A stretch of DNA of 39,144 nucleotides, taken from IMG/VR virus record IMGVR_UViG_3300008221_001529, positions 1-39,144 of that record; one strand, given 5' to 3'. This document shows, piece by piece, positions 1 to 39,144 of the stretch (its first letter is position 1; each line of letters opens with the position of its first letter). The notes under the pieces were generated by a model. It ran no database searches. It was not told the DNA's origin and saw nothing but the letters and a program-made list of their open reading frames with translations. The position numbers were made by a program, and so were the translations under genes. Source of the DNA: a virus.

Positions 1-1164
1 ATGGGTAGTGTAAATGTCCGTAATAATAAGTTGTTACTCGATTTCCGGTATAAAGGGATTCGCTGTCGTGAAATGACAATGTTGGAAGATAGCGTTGCAA
101 ATCGGAAGAGAGCTGGTGCCGTGTTGAAGCGAATTGAGGCTGAAATTCATCTAAATCAATTTGAATATGCTAAGCATTTCCCTAACAGTAATAATGTTAA
201 AAAGTTTGCTGAATACGATCGGATTACAATGTTAAAAGAGTCTACCGAGTCTTTGAAGGTGATTGAGTTTGTTGAGCGATGGCTAACTGAGAAAAAAGCC
301 GAATGGCGTCCTTCTCAACTTCGAACCATTGAAGATATTTTGAATCTTTATATTTTGCCCCGCTTTGGTGAAATGCAAATTAGCTTGATCACTAAATCGG
401 ACATTATGACATTTAGAGCAGATCTAGTGGATGGTAAAGCTTTTGCAAAAGAGCTTTCAGCTTCTCGCATCAATCAAATATTGTCACCTTTACGTGTGGT
501 GTTAAATGATGCCTCAGAACGATATGAATTCGTCAGTCCTTGGAAGTCGATCAAGCCATTGCCTGTTAATCGTCAACCTGTACATCCATTTACGCTGGAT
601 GAAGTGCTTAAGATTTTGAGCTTTGTTCGCAAGGACTTCCGTTGTTATTTCTTAGTGCGATTTTTTAGTGGGTTACGTACGGGTGAGATTGATGGTTTGC
701 AATGGGAGAATGTGGATTTTGAACGACGTCAAATACTGGTTCGTCAGTCTTGGGTACGAAATAAACTAGGCCCAGTGAAGACAAAAACGTCATTGCGTGA
801 AATTGATATGAATGACCTTGTTTATGAGGCGCTAACTCAGCATTTCAAACTCTCGAATGGCCGTGGTTTTGTCTTTCAAACATCTGGAGGCCATCCGATG
901 AACAACAAAAACATGTCTTATCGTGTTTGGTATCCCACATTGGATATCTTAAAAATACCAAGACGCAACCCATATCAAACTAGACATACAGCAGCCACCT
1001 TATGGCTAGCATCAGGGGAGTCTCCTGAGTGGATAGCTAAACAAATGGGACATGCGAATACCAATATGCTTTTTACTGTGTATTCGCGTTATGTACCCAA
1101 TTTAACCCGTCGAGATGGCAGTGCTTTTGAAGCATTTTTAAATCAAAAACTGAAAGGGGAATAA
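1..1164 (+). CDS. Tyrosine recombinase/integrase with N-terminal arm domain
   Basis: This 387-residue site-specific recombinase cuts and rejoins DNA through a tyrosine. The first ~60 residues (starting MGSVNVRNNKLLLDFRYKG) look like the DUF3596-type arm-DNA-binding domain. A SAM-like core-binding domain follows at about 85-185. The catalytic domain shows box I arginine in FFSGLRTGEIDGLQW, a lysine-bearing hairpin (VKTKTS), the H-x-x-R region as YQTRHTAATL, then GHANTNM and the nucleophile in VYSRYVP. All catalytic residues appear present. The ORF begins at base 1 with an ATG, so the start and any attachment site to its left cannot be judged. The next small ORF follows after 2 bp, suggesting co-transcription. 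It lies outside the Mu-like prophage and probably belongs to an older island or defective element in the host. Confidence 0.9.
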   Translation: MGSVNVRNNKLLLDFRYKGIRCREMTMLEDSVANRKRAGAVLKRIEAEIHLNQFEYAKHFPNSNNVKKFAEYDRITMLKESTESLKVIEFVERWLTEKKAEWRPSQLRTIEDILNLYILPRFGEMQISLITKSDIMTFRADLVDGKAFAKELSASRINQILSPLRVVLNDASERYEFVSPWKSIKPLPVNRQPVHPFTLDEVLKILSFVRKDFRCYFLVRFFSGLRTGEIDGLQWENVDFERRQILVRQSWVRNKLGPVKTKTSLREIDMNDLVYEALTQHFKLSNGRGFVFQTSGGHPMNNKNMSYRVWYPTLDILKIPRRNPYQTRHTAATLWLASGESPEWIAKQMGHANTNMLFTVYSRYVPNLTRRDGSAFEAFLNQKLKGE

Positions 1165-3475: not shown

Positions 3476-3553
3476 TGAGCGCGGCCGAGAGAAAAGAGCA
3501 GAAAAGACTAGGTTAATGAACATTTTTTTATTGCTCAACAAACTAGTCTTTTT
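3476..3553. other. Prophage right end (attR): probable transposase-binding sites and terminator stem
   Basis: Reading inward from 3476 the end is TGAGCGCGGCC, then GAAAAGA twice (3491-3497, 3501-3507). A block AAAGACTAG-GT-TAATGAACA begins at 3503 and is shared with the opposite end, where it starts six bases from the terminus. This is the likely transposase recognition element. AAAAGACTAG (3502-3511) is repeated inverted as CTAGTCTTTT (3543-3552). The stem could end tailspike transcription, since it follows that gene's stop by only a few bases on the minus strand. The assignment as binding sites is by analogy with the MuA R1-R3 sites. Confidence 0.6.
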
Positions 3554-32746: not shown

Positions 32747-33700
32747 TCACTCGTTAGTTTCTAGTTCAGCAAAGGCTGTGCGCAGCAATTGCTCGGTAAT
32801 CTCGTCACCTTTGGCAAACATAGCCGCTAGCTTTAGGGTTTTACTCAGTAAGCGCAGGCCTCCTGGGCGCTCGCTAATTTGGATCATTAAACTCAATTCA
32901 CTGCCGCCGTTAATGTTCCACGCATCGCTAATGGCACGCACATCGGCTTGTTTGGTTTTATGAATGCCGCGCTTTTTGGCAATGCGACTGAATAGCCGTG
33001 CAAAATCTTCATTGCGACGGCCACCTGTTAACTGGGTATAAACCTTGTTGTTACCCACTAGCACCATGCCTATGGCGGTTTCTTCTTGCAGAATGCGCAG
33101 CTCTTCAAGGGTGGGGTAATCAAGGTGATCCGCTTCATCAATAATGATTAAGCCTTCACTGCCTTTTAAACGTTGGCGAATAACACGGCTAAGGGGGCCT
33201 TTACGACGTGGGGCGTCGTCCATACCCAGTTCCATCGCTATTTCATAAAGGCATTCGGTGAGGCTTGAACGGCTTGGGCTGGCAGTCACTTTCCACACGT
33301 TGTTATTAGTGCGTTGGTACTCGTCCAGTGTTTTGCTTTTACCCACACCCGATGCGCCATAAATCACCACTATCGATTCGGTAATTTGGGCATAGGCCAA
33401 GTCGTCCATAATCTGTTTAGCGGTAACGGTCATCACAAAGCCAGGGTCAACACTTGGGTTTGCACTGCGTTGTTCACGCATGCGTAGCCAGTTCTCTAAC
33501 TTTTCAACAATCTTTACTGGGTCAGCTTTGTATAAACCATTCAACACTTGGCTAAGCGTTGACGGTGACACGCTGATCTCTTTTGCAATTTGCGATGAGC
33601 TCACGCTCTTTGCATCAATCAAACGGCTAATGCGCATTAACACGCTAACGTGCTTATCATCACTGTTGCTTTTTGGGGTTAACCCAATCACATTTGTCAT
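32747..33700 (-). CDS. B: Transposition target protein B (AAA+ ATPase)
   Basis: This has 317 residues from ATG 33700, chosen because AAGGGA precedes it; Mu B has 312. An N-terminal helix-turn-helix (about 36-58, SSQIAKEISVSPSTLSQVLNG) precedes the AAA+ domain with Walker A GASGVGKS (115-122), Walker B LIIIDEAD (184-191), sensor LVGN (214-217) and a candidate arginine finger in RLFSRIAKK. The C-terminal helical part (SLMIQISERPGGLRLLSKTLKLAAMFA) contacts DNA and A. MuB coats target DNA, confers target immunity and stimulates A. Unusually, it is separated from A by ~580 bp. Confidence 0.95.
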   Translation of the reverse strand: MTNVIGLTPKSNSDDKHVSVLMRISRLIDAKSVSSSQIAKEISVSPSTLSQVLNGLYKADPVKIVEKLENWLRMREQRSANPSVDPGFVMTVTAKQIMDDLAYAQITESIVVIYGASGVGKSKTLDEYQRTNNNVWKVTASPSRSSLTECLYEIAMELGMDDAPRRKGPLSRVIRQRLKGSEGLIIIDEADHLDYPTLEELRILQEETAIGMVLVGNNKVYTQLTGGRRNEDFARLFSRIAKKRGIHKTKQADVRAISDAWNINGGSELSLMIQISERPGGLRLLSKTLKLAAMFAKGDEITEQLLRTAFAELETNE

Positions 33701-33733
33701 TGTTATTTCCCTTACTCTTAAATAGGAGCTTGT

Positions 33734-34219
33734 ATGCCAAGCCATGTCACAGAACAAAACGCCACTCACGTTTCACATATTCCGCATCAATACCAAGGCT
33801 GTTTCGCTGTCTTTTCACGCCGCGCAATAATGGATGAATACCAATTGCTGCATGATTTACTTAAATCCGAATATCCCTCCCTCAAATCGTCTAAAAACAT
33901 GGAAGACAATGAATGGGAGACCTTAATTAAAAATCTGTGCTCTCGTTTTTCACTTCAGTTTGAAACCGATACCTACGTTGATTTTTTGCGGGGTGAAATG
34001 AGCGATCAGGACCTACGGGCTTTACTTCGTCAGCTGCAAAGAGTGTTGGCTGCCCTTCGATATACAGAAGACGTACTAGACCACATGAGTTCTCCAACTG
34101 GGCTCTTGCTGCCTGCGTCATTTTCAAACCGCATGAACATGCTTTTGGGTCATGCTGCACTTCCGGTTGTGTGGGTTCGCATGCTGGACGTGATGGCACT
34201 TGAAACCGATATTTGTTAA
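33734..34219 (+). CDS. Antisense ORF between A and B, candidate cargo gene
   Basis: This 161-residue ORF is on the plus strand, opposite to the early operon, with AGGAG six bases before ATG 33734. Residues 30-110 look like a genuine helical protein: MDEYQLLHDLLKSEYPSLKS and YVDFLRGEMSDQDLRALLRQ followed by LQRVLAALRYTEDVLD. The last ~45 residues read less convincingly. It runs toward the repressor and could be expressed in the lysogen. It overlaps the minus-strand ORF 33927..34244, and probably only one of the two is functional. Function unknown. Confidence 0.5.
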   Translation: MPSHVTEQNATHVSHIPHQYQGCFAVFSRRAIMDEYQLLHDLLKSEYPSLKSSKNMEDNEWETLIKNLCSRFSLQFETDTYVDFLRGEMSDQDLRALLRQLQRVLAALRYTEDVLDHMSSPTGLLLPASFSNRMNMLLGHAALPVVWVRMLDVMALETDIC

Positions 34220-34279: not shown

Positions 34280-36286
34280 TTACAGGCGGTTTTTGCTTTT
34301 AAGTTCGCGCAAGTACGCAATGCTTTCGCTAAAATTAGCGGCGCATTCTGCCTGGTGTTCAGTTTCATGTTCGGGTTGATAACTAAGTGCTGTGGCGGTG
34401 TTGCCTATGGATGCTGGGCGCATCATCATCACCACTTTGGTTTCAGGAATAACTTCTTCTGCTACTGGGCGCATCATTGCGGCCAACTCAAGCGAGTCGA
34501 TACTGATTTTGGCCGCCGCGGCAATCTTGTTAGCTTTAGTAAACTGGGTACGTTTACGTTTGGTTTCACGCGCGGCTTGGGTGTCACCAAAGGCCACTTT
34601 TTCAAGGCATTCAGCCGTACAGATATGCACACCATTGAGGGCGTAAATCTCTAGTGCGTCATGCAGTTTTAATGGGTCAAAACGAGCAACCAATTTTTGA
34701 CCTACATAGTTCATCATCACTTCGTTGAAGTAGCGGTTTTTACGTCCTTTTAAGCTGCCGCCAGCATCCAGTTCGATATAGCCGCTTTTAGACACTGTCA
34801 CCGCTTCGGCTTGCAACATCATTAGCTGTAATTGAGCTGAAGTAGCCTTACGAATTTCAGCCTGTTGGTAACTGACATTAAACGCTTGATCAAAGCTCAT
34901 AAAGCCTTTGCAGATTTCGGTATTGCGGTTGATTTTGGCGTTATACATTTCAACGCCTTTGGCGATAACCTGTAAAAAGTCCTCTGCATCAATAAGCTTG
35001 CTACCGTAATTATCTGGCTTAGCCATGGGGTTTGCACCGGTATAAGCACCATGGCAAGCGGGGTGTTTGTCGATGTACTCTTCAAGTCCACCCACGCCAA
35101 AAGCGCGTTCAATCGGTTTTGCCTGGCCGTGGCCTTTACCAAGGATCACACTCGACCAATGCAGCTTGATCCCAAGCATGGGAATGATGCCTAACGGGTC
35201 ATCTTCTTTCACTTTAAAGCGGTAACGGTTAGCCACGCCGCCCGTCATCCATTTATTAGCAGCTGCGCGGGTGTTATCAATAGTGATCTCTTTTGGCACA
35301 CCGTACTTCTCGCACACGTCCATTAGTGATAACCGAATGCTGTCGGTGTTTTCACTAATATCACAGCGCCAACCGATGATCTTCCGGCTGTAAATATCCT
35401 GCCAAAACCATGTTTTAGGACGAGTTTCTTCACCGTTAAACCACTTCACAAATACGTTGTGTTGATAGCCATCGCCGTTAATCCATTCAAGGGCATGTAA
35501 ACCTTCTACACTGCGTACTTGTGGCGGGTAAAGCTGATGCAATGCATGCTGACCTTCACGTAGTAGCACTAATTGCTGTGCGGGTATTTCGTGTGCAATA
35601 CGGCGGGAAAGGCTTTTTAAACTCGGTATTTCCCAATTCGTGTCTACGGCCTTATCGAGCAAACGCTGATAACACACTGTCATTGCTGGCTGTTCTAGGC
35701 GTAAATAATCCGCTTTAAACATTTCCCAGGCCTCTGGCGACACAAAAGCAAACTGGTTTTTCTTCTTAGTCTGTGAGGCTTCAAAGTGCTTAGGCAGTAA
35801 GGCGGGGGCCCAATCTGCTTCATCAATCCCTTTAACCATCGCGCAATGACGGCGCAGCGTGCTAAGTGCAATGTCATATTCATCACACACAGACTCATAC
35901 GCATCCATTAATTTGATGCCATTACGCTTCAAAGCGAACACCGCTTTTACCGTAAGCATGGCTTCTTGGGCTTTGTCTTTAGCTGCATGATTGGTCTTAT
36001 TCCAACGGCCCCAAAGTGCATCACGGCAATAGCCATCTGACTGCGCTTTCTTTTTTGGCAAAGTAAGCACGTGATCGCCCACTTTGATTTTTCCGTCACG
36101 TTTATATAAAGCGGTTTGGGTGGCCGTCGGCAAAAGGCTGATATGGTATTCAGTCCCTTTCGTCCCTTTTCTTTTTCTCGCGAGTTCTGGATTTTCAGTG
36201 GCAAGCTTTTTTAATTGCTCGCGTATATTTCTGTCAGAACCTGGCAAGCCAACAACACCCGCTAATTCACTCGCTATTAGCCACAT
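34280..36286 (-). CDS. A: DDE transposase A (Mu A-like)
   Basis: This 668-residue transposase for integration and replicative transposition has several parts. Residues 1-60 form a winged-helix domain (MWLIASELAGVVGLPGSDRN), which in MuA binds the internal enhancer. The Ibeta/gamma end-binding domains span about 75-240. The RNase H-like core has D272 (NGDGY), D337 (TIDNTR) and E393 (KPIERAFG), almost the same positions as in MuA (269, 336, 392). The C-terminal part is helical and basic (FTKANKIAAAAKI), the B/ClpX-contacting region. AAGGAG precedes the ATG, 11 bp after ner. It appears intact. Confidence 0.97.
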   Translation of the reverse strand: MWLIASELAGVVGLPGSDRNIREQLKKLATENPELARKRKGTKGTEYHISLLPTATQTALYKRDGKIKVGDHVLTLPKKKAQSDGYCRDALWGRWNKTNHAAKDKAQEAMLTVKAVFALKRNGIKLMDAYESVCDEYDIALSTLRRHCAMVKGIDEADWAPALLPKHFEASQTKKKNQFAFVSPEAWEMFKADYLRLEQPAMTVCYQRLLDKAVDTNWEIPSLKSLSRRIAHEIPAQQLVLLREGQHALHQLYPPQVRSVEGLHALEWINGDGYQHNVFVKWFNGEETRPKTWFWQDIYSRKIIGWRCDISENTDSIRLSLMDVCEKYGVPKEITIDNTRAAANKWMTGGVANRYRFKVKEDDPLGIIPMLGIKLHWSSVILGKGHGQAKPIERAFGVGGLEEYIDKHPACHGAYTGANPMAKPDNYGSKLIDAEDFLQVIAKGVEMYNAKINRNTEICKGFMSFDQAFNVSYQQAEIRKATSAQLQLMMLQAEAVTVSKSGYIELDAGGSLKGRKNRYFNEVMMNYVGQKLVARFDPLKLHDALEIYALNGVHICTAECLEKVAFGDTQAARETKRKRTQFTKANKIAAAAKISIDSLELAAMMRPVAEEVIPETKVVMMMRPASIGNTATALSYQPEHETEHQAECAANFSESIAYLRELKSKNRL

Positions 36287-36297
36287 ACGAATTCTCC

Positions 36298-36555
36298 TTA
36301 ACTCGCTGCGCGTAATGAACGGTAACGGCTAGGCCATACTTGTTCTGGTTTCATACCTATCGCAGTTGCGATGATCTTTTCACCTTTAGGCCAAGGCGAA
36401 CGCAGGGCATTAGCTAGTGTGTTTTCCCCTAATCCTGCGTCCCTTGATAGTTGACGAACGGACAAACCACGCTTTTTTAATGCGGCGATAATGTCGGCTC
36501 GATGCCAATCGCTTCCATATTGGTTGCTTTTTTGAGAGACTATTTCGTTATTCAC
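36298..36555 (-). CDS. ner: Ner, early transcription regulator
   Basis: This 85-residue Ner/Nlp family DNA-binding protein reads DWHRADIIAALKKRGLSVRQLSRDAGLGENTLANALRSPWPKGEKIIATAIGMKPEQVWPSRY; the helix-turn-helix is at about 32-52. Ner turns down early transcription and prevents repressor synthesis during lytic growth. The start is GTG 36555, with AGAGG eight bases upstream; an ATG is absent. It is the first gene of the early operon, 39 bp from the promoter -10. Confidence 0.93.
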   Translation of the reverse strand: MNNEIVSQKSNQYGSDWHRADIIAALKKRGLSVRQLSRDAGLGENTLANALRSPWPKGEKIIATAIGMKPEQVWPSRYRSLRAAS

Positions 36556-36593
36556 CTTGGTAACCTCTGTGAGTTGCTCTACTTAGTAACTAG

Positions 36594-36622
36594 ATAATGG
36601 ATTAAAGGGATGAATCGGTCAA
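36594..36622 (-). promoter_or_regulatory. Early promoter Pe
   Basis: On the minus strand TTGACC (36622-36617) and CATTAT (36599-36594) are 17 bp apart and point into ner. An AACGGATG operator copy lies just upstream of the -35 (36627-36634), well placed for repression. Confidence 0.65.
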
Positions 36623-36626
36623 TAGC

Positions 36627-36781
36627 AACGGATGATATTTTTCAATAACCATCCGTTGCTATAATTTAAACAATTGGATGAAAACATTTATATGGCATTT
36701 AAAAACAAGGACTTAAAGCAAACGGATGCACGAGACGCAGAAACGGATGAATCATCCGTTTGTGATGGTGATCAACGGATA
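36627..36781. promoter_or_regulatory. Operator/enhancer array: six AACGGATG-type repeats
   Basis: AACGGATG occurs at 36627-36634, 36721-36728 and 36742-36749. Its complement CATCCGTT is at 36650-36657 and 36753-36760, and AACGGATA is at 36774-36781. Two pairs are inverted: AGCAACGGATG (36624-36634) with CATCCGTTGCT (36650-36660), and AAACGGATGA with TCATCCGTTT around one A (36741-36761). Three sites lie inside the repressor gene. By analogy with the Mu O1-O3/IAS region, repressor and transposase N-termini, which are alike here, should both bind this array. Confidence 0.75.
36638..36665 (+). promoter_or_regulatory. Repressor promoter Pc
   Basis: A perfect TATAAT (36660-36665) with a weak -35 (TTTTTC, 36638-36643) faces the repressor gene. 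A CATCCGTTGCT operator arm overlaps the upstream edge of the -10, suggesting autoregulation. The start would fall near 36672, giving a ~20-nt leader before ATG 36692. Confidence 0.6.
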
Positions 36782-37459
36782 GTATGGTTTATCGCATCCG
36801 AATTAGCCGGACATGGAAGTTTTCCAACATCAGATAGATGGACGCGAGACCACTTAAAGGAATTAGCAGAGGGAAAGGAACATCTTTGCAGAAAAAGGAA
36901 AGGTACTAAGGCCATTGAATATCACATCAGTTTATTACCAGCGGATACACAAAGAAGTTTGTTAGGCGCTAATTCACATGGCATAGTTGAAGCCCCAACC
37001 GCATATTCACTCATGCCTATCGTTCCAAATTTCATGGATGAATTTGTATTAATACCTGGATATAGAATCCAAGTTTCAGCAGGACATGGTTCATTAAATC
37101 CAGACCAACTAGAACCAGTTAGACACCTAGCATTTAGGCGTAAGTGGTTGAAGTACAGAGGTTTCAGCGAAAAGGATTTAGCGATAGTATGGGCTAAAGG
37201 CGATAGCATGGAACCAACCATCCACAACAACGATACGTTAGTCGTTCATTTGGGGCGGAATAAGCCAGCCGATGGCCACATATATATTTTCAGGAATGGT
37301 GAAGAGTTGTTCGTTAAGCGGTATCAAAGCGTTTTAGGCTCTTGGCGTTTGATTAGTGATAACCAGCTATATGACAAAATAGACGTTAAGCAAGAACACC
37401 AGCACCAATTTGAAGTAATAGGCCAGGTGGTTCATATTGCTAAAGACATAGGTGACTAG
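36692..37459 (+). CDS. c: Hybrid repressor: Mu-type DNA-binding domain plus S24/LexA-like self-cleaving domain
   Basis: This has 255 residues from ATG 36692; a TTG at 36674 would sit almost at the transcription start. Residues 32-91 (WFIASELAGHGSFPTSDRW... RKRKGTKAIEYHISLLP) match the transposase N-terminus at about 36 of 60 positions and should bind the same operators. Residues ~105-250 are a LexA/CI-type peptidase: VSAGHG gives an Ala130-Gly131 cleavage site, GDSMEPT the catalytic Ser172, and LFVKRYQ the general base Lys209. Mu c has no such domain and is controlled by ClpX. This repressor should therefore be cleaved after RecA activation, making the prophage SOS-inducible. The induction mode is inferred. 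Confidence 0.93.
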   Translation: MAFKNKDLKQTDARDAETDESSVCDGDQRIVWFIASELAGHGSFPTSDRWTRDHLKELAEGKEHLCRKRKGTKAIEYHISLLPADTQRSLLGANSHGIVEAPTAYSLMPIVPNFMDEFVLIPGYRIQVSAGHGSLNPDQLEPVRHLAFRRKWLKYRGFSEKDLAIVWAKGDSMEPTIHNNDTLVVHLGRNKPADGHIYIFRNGEELFVKRYQSVLGSWRLISDNQLYDKIDVKQEHQHQFEVIGQVVHIAKDIGD

Positions 37460-37644: not shown

Positions 37645-37724
37645 CATAACGATCCCATTTAAACCTCATAGATCCAATACGATCCCTAACCTATGGTATT
37701 GTTCATTCATCTAGTCTTTATACA
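37645..37724. other. Prophage left end (attL) with probable transposase-binding sites
   Basis: Reading inward from 37724 the end is TGTATAAAGACTAG then ATGAATGAACA; the AAAGACTAG...AATGAACA block matches the other end. TGTAT also matches the first bases of the Mu left end. Further in, GATCCCAT (37651), GATCCAAT (37671) and GATCCCTA (37681) are spaced 20 and 10 bp apart and may be weaker sites. There is no gene between 37460 and the end. Confidence 0.6.
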
Positions 37725-37729
37725 CACAT
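37725..37729. repeat. 5-bp target-site duplication, right copy (CACAT)
   Basis: Direct repeat of CACAT at 3471-3475, bordering the terminal TATACA of the prophage. Confidence 0.9.
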
Positions 37730-39144
37730 CGATAAGAAATAATTAATATGCTTTTTATAACTAATTTGTTGTTAAAGTCCAAATCAATAATTTGATCAGC
37801 AGCATCTAAAAGTGCCTTAAATAGTGTTTCATCGACAAAACCTGCATTAGTATGACTTTTATGCTGAGAATCATTGGATATCGACTCTAGTAATAATGGA
37901 AAATCAAATTCTTGGACTGCAAAAGCATGAAAGTCACTTAATCTAGCTGTAAGTTTAGTTTTTTGTTTCTGGTAATGAGTGAGTTCGATTAATTCAGCGT
38001 AAAGATCTTGGAAGTCTTGCTCCTCTGCCTGTTCAAAATTAAGCCCTTCAGTTTGATAAAGCCATTTCCTTGAGATGGTCGAATGGTAAGTTCGAATAGT
38101 TGATGGTTTACAGGTGTCTAGCTTGTGGATAAACCACTTGATGAGTACTTCTTGGGCTGTTGATAATTGATTTTCATTTACGACATTTTTAAGTTTTTTT
38201 GCCAAGGATTCAGATGTTAACTTCTTCTTAGCATTCTCCTTTAGTTCACCAGCTAGCGTCTGATAAAAGTTAGATAATGGCAACGTAGGCTGTAAACGAA
38301 GTCTTGCTTTGCTTTTAATCTGTCTCAGTGGGTTATAAAAATGAAGCTTGGGATGCTCTTTAATGGCACAAGTAGCCAATCGAGCTAGATTTTCTTTAGG
38401 TAGACAATACGCTTTGTTTCTGCCCATTGCATATTCAAGAATAGACTGTGATATTCGCACATCGGGGAAAAATGTAATTAAGCTTACCGCTGATTTTACA
38501 AGTTTATTTAGTGTGTTAGGTAAAGGTATGGGGCCAACATAGTCCTGAATGATTAAAGCGTGGATGTTTTTATTTTCAGAAGGAGCTTGCCAAAGTGTAT
38601 TTAGAGGGACTTTTTTAAGTGCTAAAAAGTGGCTTATGCAGCTAATTGTAATAGGGGATAAGTAGCAAGTAATTTGGGTTGTTTTTTTATCCTGATTTAC
38701 AACATTTGTATTGAATCCGTTTTCATTAATTTCTAAGTTGATAAAAGGTAAATTATTGATCGTTGAAATGTCCAACGAGGTATTTAATTGATTTGATATT
38801 GCGCTTAATAAATGGTGGTTTAGACAGCTTGAGTGACAAATGAATGACATAATAATAGCGCGATAAGCATCTGATATATTATTGCTTTGTCCATTGTTAG
38901 ATAAGTTGTCAAACCAATGGGTATAGAGCCAATTAAATGCAAGCCCATCTTGCATTAATTTTTGAGTGTATATTGGTATTTCAGCCCTTTGAGTGACCAA
39001 AAAAGAGGGGATAGCAATATCGACTTGTTTTTCTTTGATAAGTGAGATGCAATGATTAAAGGCTCGTTTGAAGTCTATTTGTGATTTGAAAACCTCAGCG
39101 AGGTTTTCAGTTAGCTTAAGCCAAGTTGAATCAAAATTTTCTGA
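37725..39144 (-). pseudogene. N-terminal half of the split large tyrosine recombinase (runs off the window)
   Basis: The minus-strand frame is open from the last base of the window, so the true start lies beyond 39144; TTG 39000 is not convincing. The encoded part (~470 residues) includes YRAIIMSFICHSSCLNHHLL and a core-binding-like helical region near the end (AQEVLIKWFIHKLDTCKPSTIRTYHSTISRKWLYQTEG). Its last native residues are LVIKSILIISYR, exactly what precedes C-G-L-R of the fragment at 1978..3475. After the junction, translation enters prophage DNA for only a few codons (CVYKD, stop at 37711). Lacking all catalytic residues, the fragment must be inactive as a recombinase. Confidence 0.88.

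Follow-up and report, generated by a model that had tools for sequence, protein, structure and literature searches.

The gene c in the window, by which we mean the whole 39,144-nucleotide stretch of viral DNA analysed here, is on sequence and model evidence the repressor gene of a Mu-like prophage, and its product has an S24/LexA-type C-terminal domain with the predicted cleavage site and Ser/Lys dyad in place. We consider it likely that c is a LexA/CI-type self-cleaving immunity repressor that sits on an operator array and would be triggered by RecA, and that the DNA-binding half of c, its operators, ner and the N-terminal domain of transposase A form a cassette exchanged between phages as a block. 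S24 repressors in Mu-like phages are already known in kind; what is new here is a two-gene immunity cassette that appears to be exchanged while the S24 switch and the transposase core stay constant.

A transposase-like winged HTH joined to a predicted S24 autoprotease

The c gene starts with ATG, a TTG 18 nt upstream being a possible alternative, and encodes from N to C terminus a leader of ~30 aa, a Mu-type winged HTH, a linker and an S24/LexA-type autoprotease domain (Table 1). A sequence-only reading of this DNA had noticed that the N-terminal domain matches the phage's own transposase at about 36 of 60 positions, and BLASTP of c residues 31–90 against A residues 1–60 returned the same count (36/60 identical, E=2e-18). 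That reading had also proposed a profile search of both domains. For the C-domain the outcome was clear, with Peptidase_S24 (PF00717) covering c residues 127–247 at E=2.3e-24. For the N-domain it was divided: the PHROG transposase profile phrog_310 (1e-10) and a Mu-type repressor profile (3.5e-6) matched the c N-terminus, and HTH_Tnp_Mu_1 (PF02316) stayed under its curated cut-off (19.7 bits vs 23.3). The Mu-type DNA-binding domain was assigned from PHROGs, pairwise and fold evidence in place of the sub-threshold PF02316 score.

The AlphaFold model of c was confident for the winged HTH (~31–92) and the S24 domain, with the leader and linker disordered. The modelled C-domain aligned to LexA (Z 14.4, rmsd 2.3–2.6 over 120–125 residues; RecA-bound LexA was also matched) and to RecA-bound lambda CI (Z 13.8). 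The cleavable LexA and lambda CI were the best fold matches of the S24 model. Residues 29–96 aligned to 1qpm, the DNA-binding domain of the Mu repressor (Z 5.5, rmsd 3.6, 63 residues). The Ala-Gly pair, Ser172 and Lys209 of the earlier reading could be read directly from the DNA, and the GDSM and KR motifs around the catalytic residues are intact, as they are in the majority of the S24 repressors surveyed below (cleavage-site A in 58/64 and G in 59/64; catalytic S in 62/64 and K in 60/64). The spacing from A130 to S172 is 42 residues; the corresponding cleavage site-to-Ser spacing of LexA is 35 residues, and this difference was counted against the cleavage reading. The S24 fold, the Ser/Lys dyad and the Ala-Gly site are common to c, LexA and lambda CI, but the latter two have another DNA-binding fold or family and do not belong to a transposable phage.

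Table 1. Features of the c-ner-A-B region, in window coordinates.
Feature	Coordinates	Strand	Evidence
Transposition protein B	32747..33769	-	PF09077 E=4e-27; phrog_296
Transposase A, 668 aa	34280..36286	-	PF02914 E=9e-108 and others
A N-terminal winged-HTH domain (A residues 1-60), within exchanged cassette	36107..36286	-	similarity to c N-domain
Ner (early regulator), within exchanged cassette	36298..36555	-	PF13693 E=3e-29; phrog_769
Promoter-like site for ner-A-B, TTGACC-17-CATTAT; O1 covers it, O2 adjoins it	36594..36622	-	consensus match only
Operator-like O1, degenerate AAAGGGATG	36604..36612	+	repeat families; aligned in relatives
Operator-like O2, CAACGGATG, arm of 13-bp perfect inverted repeat	36626..36634	+	repeats; relatives
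Operator-like O3, inverted, other arm (36650-36662), overlaps c -10 box	36650..36658	-	repeats; relatives
TATAAT, probable c -10	36660..36665	+	sequence
c repressor, 255 aa	36692..37459	+	ORF; Pfam/PHROGs; AlphaFold model
Operator-like O4, within c coding sequence	36720..36728	+	repeats; relatives
Operator-like O5, within c coding sequence	36741..36749	+	repeats; relatives
Operator-like O6, inverted, within c coding sequence	36752..36761	-	repeats; relatives
Operator-like O7, CAACGGATA, within c coding sequence	36773..36781	+	repeat families; relatives
c winged-HTH DNA-binding domain, residues 31-92	36782..36967	+	own-A match; 1qpm Z 5.5
c S24 domain, residues 118-255	37043..37456	+	PF00717; LexA Z 14.4
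Predicted self-cleavage site Ala130-Gly131	37079..37084	+	sequence
Predicted catalytic Ser172	37205..37207	+	sequence
Predicted catalytic Lys209, 37 residues past Ser172	37316..37318	+	sequence

The divergent arrangement of c and ner-A-B is the gene order of Mu, and the window holds the Mu-like hallmarks PF02914, PF09039, PF09299, PF09077, HTH_35 and GemA, with a MuA-type DDE transposase and MuB. Mu, D108 and SfMu have the same c-ner-A order and related repressor and transposase N-domains. The c proteins of Mu and D108, however, are 174 aa long and have no S24 domain, and the window c is unlike Mu c proper with its short C-terminal tail.

S24 repressors among Mu-like phages

Mu-like loci were gathered by transposase similarity and the divergent repressor of each was then read. 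An S24 domain was found in 64 of the 93 phages with a readable repressor, and the two-domain build of winged HTH and S24 in at least 42 of these 64. Average-linkage clustering of the trimmed DNA-binding domains divided the 64 S24 repressors into eight classes, namely class 7 with the winged HTH of the window (23 phages), class 5 with another winged HTH (18 phages), the Cro/CI-type classes 1 (12 phages) and 2 (7 phages), and four singletons. These class sizes make winged HTH plus S24 a frequent architecture. Single-linkage clustering was rejected, as 62 of the 64 domains fell in one group, and further transposase scans to enlarge the set yielded few additional class members. Four Mu-like repressors (L036, L037, L109 and L176) have an S24 domain from which the catalytic Ser, the Lys or the Ala-Gly site has disappeared, which suggests that they are non-cleavable descendants and thus that the domain can persist without cleavage.

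When the 93 transposases were ranked by similarity to each of the 55 winged-HTH repressors, the own transposase came first for only eight, and that of the window was fifth. The idea that the DNA-binding domain of the repressor is a copy taken from the transposase of the same phage was therefore rejected as stated. The mean rank of the own transposase was nevertheless 6.4 versus 46 expected with shuffled partners (minimum of 1000 shuffles, 35.8). Thus, the match between repressor and transposase is at the level of the class and not exclusive. The transposase-like DNA-binding domain joined to a predicted switch, which the earlier reading had stressed, is seen here, but such sharing is standard in Mu and D108. 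Related phages also carry almost the same S24 domain (77–79% identical) after a Cro/CI-type HTH, so that S24 does not depend on a transposase-like DNA-binding partner. Vibrio phage 1.028.O, vB-Vv-ZX4290 and Shewanella MuM16-2 resemble the window in S24 (78–79% identical) and in array geometry, and differ from it in their Cro/CI-type HTH and the operator word AAAGGAAC.

An operator-like array across the c and ner-A-B promoters

The word AACGGATG occurs in six copies in the 39 kb, five of them within 36627–36760, against a shuffle mean of 0.95. Two copies make up a 13-bp perfect inverted repeat that runs onto the TATAAT of the probable c promoter, which the consensus scan missed because its -35 is weak. 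The candidate for ner-A-B was the only promoter found by the sigma-70 scan, and as this count is below the shuffle mean the promoter calls are tentative. In aligned relatives about seven sites keep constant positions. Four of these lie within the coding sequence of c, in its first 90 bases, and dictate a conserved 'TD.SSV' leader peptide. The site word (AACGGATG, AACGGACG, AAAGGAC or ATCGGAA) switches at most sites together across relatives. At least two copies of AACGGA[TC]G were present in 20/23 class-7 phages and in 0/41 others, and at least two copies of AAAGGAAC in 12/12 class-1 phages and in 0/52 others. These patterns point to the c-ner array as putative operators with class-specific words. 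A conserved TTAG/GTTA-rich block beside ner (window 36556–36602 and relatives, in classes 1 and 7) differs from the repressor words and is a candidate site for Ner to bind.

Exchange of the immunity cassette

Among pairs of phages with A cores 85–97% identical, the median identity of the A N-domain was 89% when the repressors were of the same class (n=48) and 44% when they were of different classes (n=94). The identity of ner changed likewise (89% vs 57%), and that of S24 was 88% in the same class and 86% in different classes. Several chimeric pairs (L022/L121, L001/L121, L018/L021, L069/L072, L015/L026 and others) have A cores 99–100% and S24 domains 78–100% identical and carry different cassettes; L022 and L121, for example, are 99.8% identical in the A core and 100% in S24 but 55% in the A N-domain and 47% in Ner. 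The DNA identity of chimeras was ~95–100% up to A residue ~60–85, then 30–65% across most of the cassette, and climbed again from the start of S24 (97–100% in the clearest pairs). In the nine different-class pairs profiled the breakpoints lay at A residues ~55–85 and at the junction between the DNA-binding and S24 parts of c, and were sharpest where the A cores were nearly identical. There were seven clusters of phages in which the A cores are at least 97% identical and yet two or more DNA-binding classes occur. The reverse case was seen between the window and L008, with 92–98% DNA identity from the A N-domain through ner into the adjoining intergenic DNA and only ~72–90% in the A flank. These comparisons together indicate that the DNA-binding half of c, the operators, ner and the first ~60–85 residues of A are exchanged as one immunity cassette, and that recombination joins a new DNA-binding cassette to the resident S24 switch and the resident transposase core.

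A genome comparison of Mu, D108 and SfMu placed a breakpoint near A residue 70 (A 71–end 98–100%, A 1–70 41–43% and ner 49–52% identical). For Mu versus D108 the values were 99–100% for A 71–end, 43% for A 1–70, 49% for Ner, and 28% and 39% for the two halves of c. As both halves of c differ, the second breakpoint of Mu and D108 is not at a DNA-binding/S24 junction, and the Mu, D108 and SfMu group differs from that of the window in having no Cro/CI-type exchange. The shared A breakpoint nevertheless means that the cassette finding extends a known principle; the control regions of Mu and D108 were reportedly the subject of a paper by Mizuuchi et al. in 1986. C and Ner of SfMu are close to D108 and far from Mu (PMC4406740).

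Part of the linkage within the cassette could be due simply to c, ner and the 5' end of A being neighbours. That physical linkage is all there is to it, so that recombination within ~1.2 kb carries the neighbours along and the A N-domain need not recognise the operators, is a reading that we find rather unlikely. The DNA-binding domain of c, the operators, ner and the A N-domain do lie next to each other, but the A breakpoints of the profiled chimeras all fall at ~55–85, near the end of the N-domain, with none scattered into the core, and Mu and D108 have the same A breakpoint. Furthermore, residue 20, in a helix of A, co-varies with the operator word, being G with AAAGGAAC in 12/12, N with AACGGAT in 15/15 and R with GGAC in 7/7 phages, counts that are not independent because the class members are related. 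The pattern also holds in two phages added by a later scan, L227 (R with AACGGAC) and L229 (N with AACGGAT).

One array, possibly read by two DNA-binding folds

The site offsets of the window array are ~0, -24, +94, +115, -127 and +147, the sign giving the strand. Arrays of the Cro/CI-type classes 1 and 2 fall on this geometry at 6/6 sites in L004 and L066 and at 4/4 sites in L018 and L043, where random placement would give ~2.0 and 1.6 matches for six and four sites, respectively. Classes 1 and 7 have a GGA core in common despite their class-specific words, and the A N-domain is a winged HTH in every class. In two phages, L083 (1–966, minus strand) and L084 (1–969, minus strand), the repressor has three domains, a Cro-type HTH_3, an HTH_Tnp_Mu_1 winged HTH and S24, and sits on a AAAGGAAC operator array. 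These repressors are plausibly a fusion intermediate in the replacement of DNA-binding domains; a scan with the three-domain repressor returned only the two known copies.

From these arrangements we infer that the array is constrained by the transposase, for which it would be an enhancer, and that the DNA-binding domains of repressors have been replaced upon it. Two unrelated folds would then read one fixed array whose words change together, and a winged or a Cro/CI-type HTH would be grafted, maybe via fusions such as those of L083 and L084, on a constant S24 SOS switch. We put this forward tentatively, with somewhat less than even confidence. No description of a Cro/winged-HTH exchange on a fixed array was found in the literature outside subscription papers.

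Predicted induction by DNA damage

In the mechanism that we propose, c dimers held by their S24 domains would place winged HTHs on the ~seven AACGGATG-type sites, which extend over both divergent promoters, that of c and that of ner-A-B, and 90 bases into c; ner-A-B would be shut off and c tuned by autoregulation. Upon DNA damage, RecA filaments would stimulate S172/K209 to cut A130-G131, and this cleavage would part the two halves of c, allow expression of ner, A and B and so set off replicative transposition. The N-terminal winged HTH of A probably uses the same array as a transpositional enhancer, as in Mu.

The c repressor of the Mu-like Mannheimia phage vB_MhM_3927AP2 (KP137440) has the same build (PF02316 E=4e-13 and S24 E=8e-22), and its N-domain is 57% identical to the transposase of that phage; it is only ~34% identical overall to the window c and has a short leader. 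The phage was recovered after mitomycin C, and the table of the original paper gives only an S24_LexA-like motif for c (PMC4553209). Mu-like phages are generally not inducible by mitomycin C, but a growing number are, and those checked by Bujak et al. (2021) have repressors with S24 peptidase domains, for which these authors proposed a correlation (PMC8541194). The c repressor of Shewanella MuM16-1 is likewise an S24 protein of a transposable phage with the same predicted RecA-stimulated induction, but has a lambda-type HTH and not a transposase-like winged HTH (PMC8541194). The central prediction of the sequence-only reading, an SOS-inducible Mu-like phage, is thus sound, being supported by the domains, the dyad, the c/ner/A/B neighbourhood and homology to 3927AP2; it had already been proposed for such phages, and its novelty did not stand (PMC8541194). 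Induction by DNA damage is our best prediction for the window phage.

It is improbable, in our judgement, that S24 serves for dimerisation only, or that an antirepressor of the phage or the host, and not RecA-stimulated self-cleavage, inactivates it, with no direct SOS induction. In that direction point 186 CI, which has an S24-like CI domain without cleavage and is among the fold matches of the c model, and the few related repressors without the Ser, Lys or Ala-Gly site. The Mu-like prophages of Mannheimia 535A and 587A were moreover not recovered after mitomycin C, which counts against full confidence in induction (PMC4553209). Against it, the window c and most of the 64 repressors have kept Ser172, Lys209, Ala130-Gly131 and the GDSM and KR motifs, and the model is closest to the cleavable LexA and lambda CI. 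Derepression as in Mu, through ClpX/ClpP or dominant-negative forms with S24 as a passive relic, would suit the Mu c type of the N-terminal domain but is very hard to reconcile with a full S24 C-domain in place of the short Mu c tail and with the strong conservation of its catalytic residues.

Mu is the textbook case of a prophage that DNA damage does not induce, since its repressor is handled by ClpX; in a large group of Mu relatives, replicative transposition appears instead to be coupled to RecA. The natural chimeras show how phages could change immunity, by recombination that cuts within two genes at domain junctions, and yet keep the damage switch and the transposase. Phages with the same A core and S24 and a different cassette are ready-made pairs for questions of superinfection immunity and of enhancer/operator matching.

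Phage ends and flanking DNA

Inverted 20-bp repeats (AAAGACTAG..TGAACA-like, 90% identical) were seen at window 3503–3522 and ~37701–37720. They are probably the right and left phage ends with the transposase end sites, in which case the phage covers ~3.5–37.7 kb of the window. An ORF at 37711–39000 (minus strand), which had no Pfam match, resembles by eye the N-terminal part of a tyrosine recombinase broken close to the left phage end. A 'GLRISEI' stretch that likewise looks recombinase-like by eye is encoded on the minus strand directly beyond the right end, before ~3500. The phage seems to be inserted within a host recombinase gene. A second tyrosine integrase (Arm-DNA-bind_2, Phage_integrase) at 1–1164 (plus strand) in the host flank is perhaps part of an adjoining mobile element, and the region 1597–1968 beside it bears a weak resemblance to an Xre/MbcA/ParS antitoxin.
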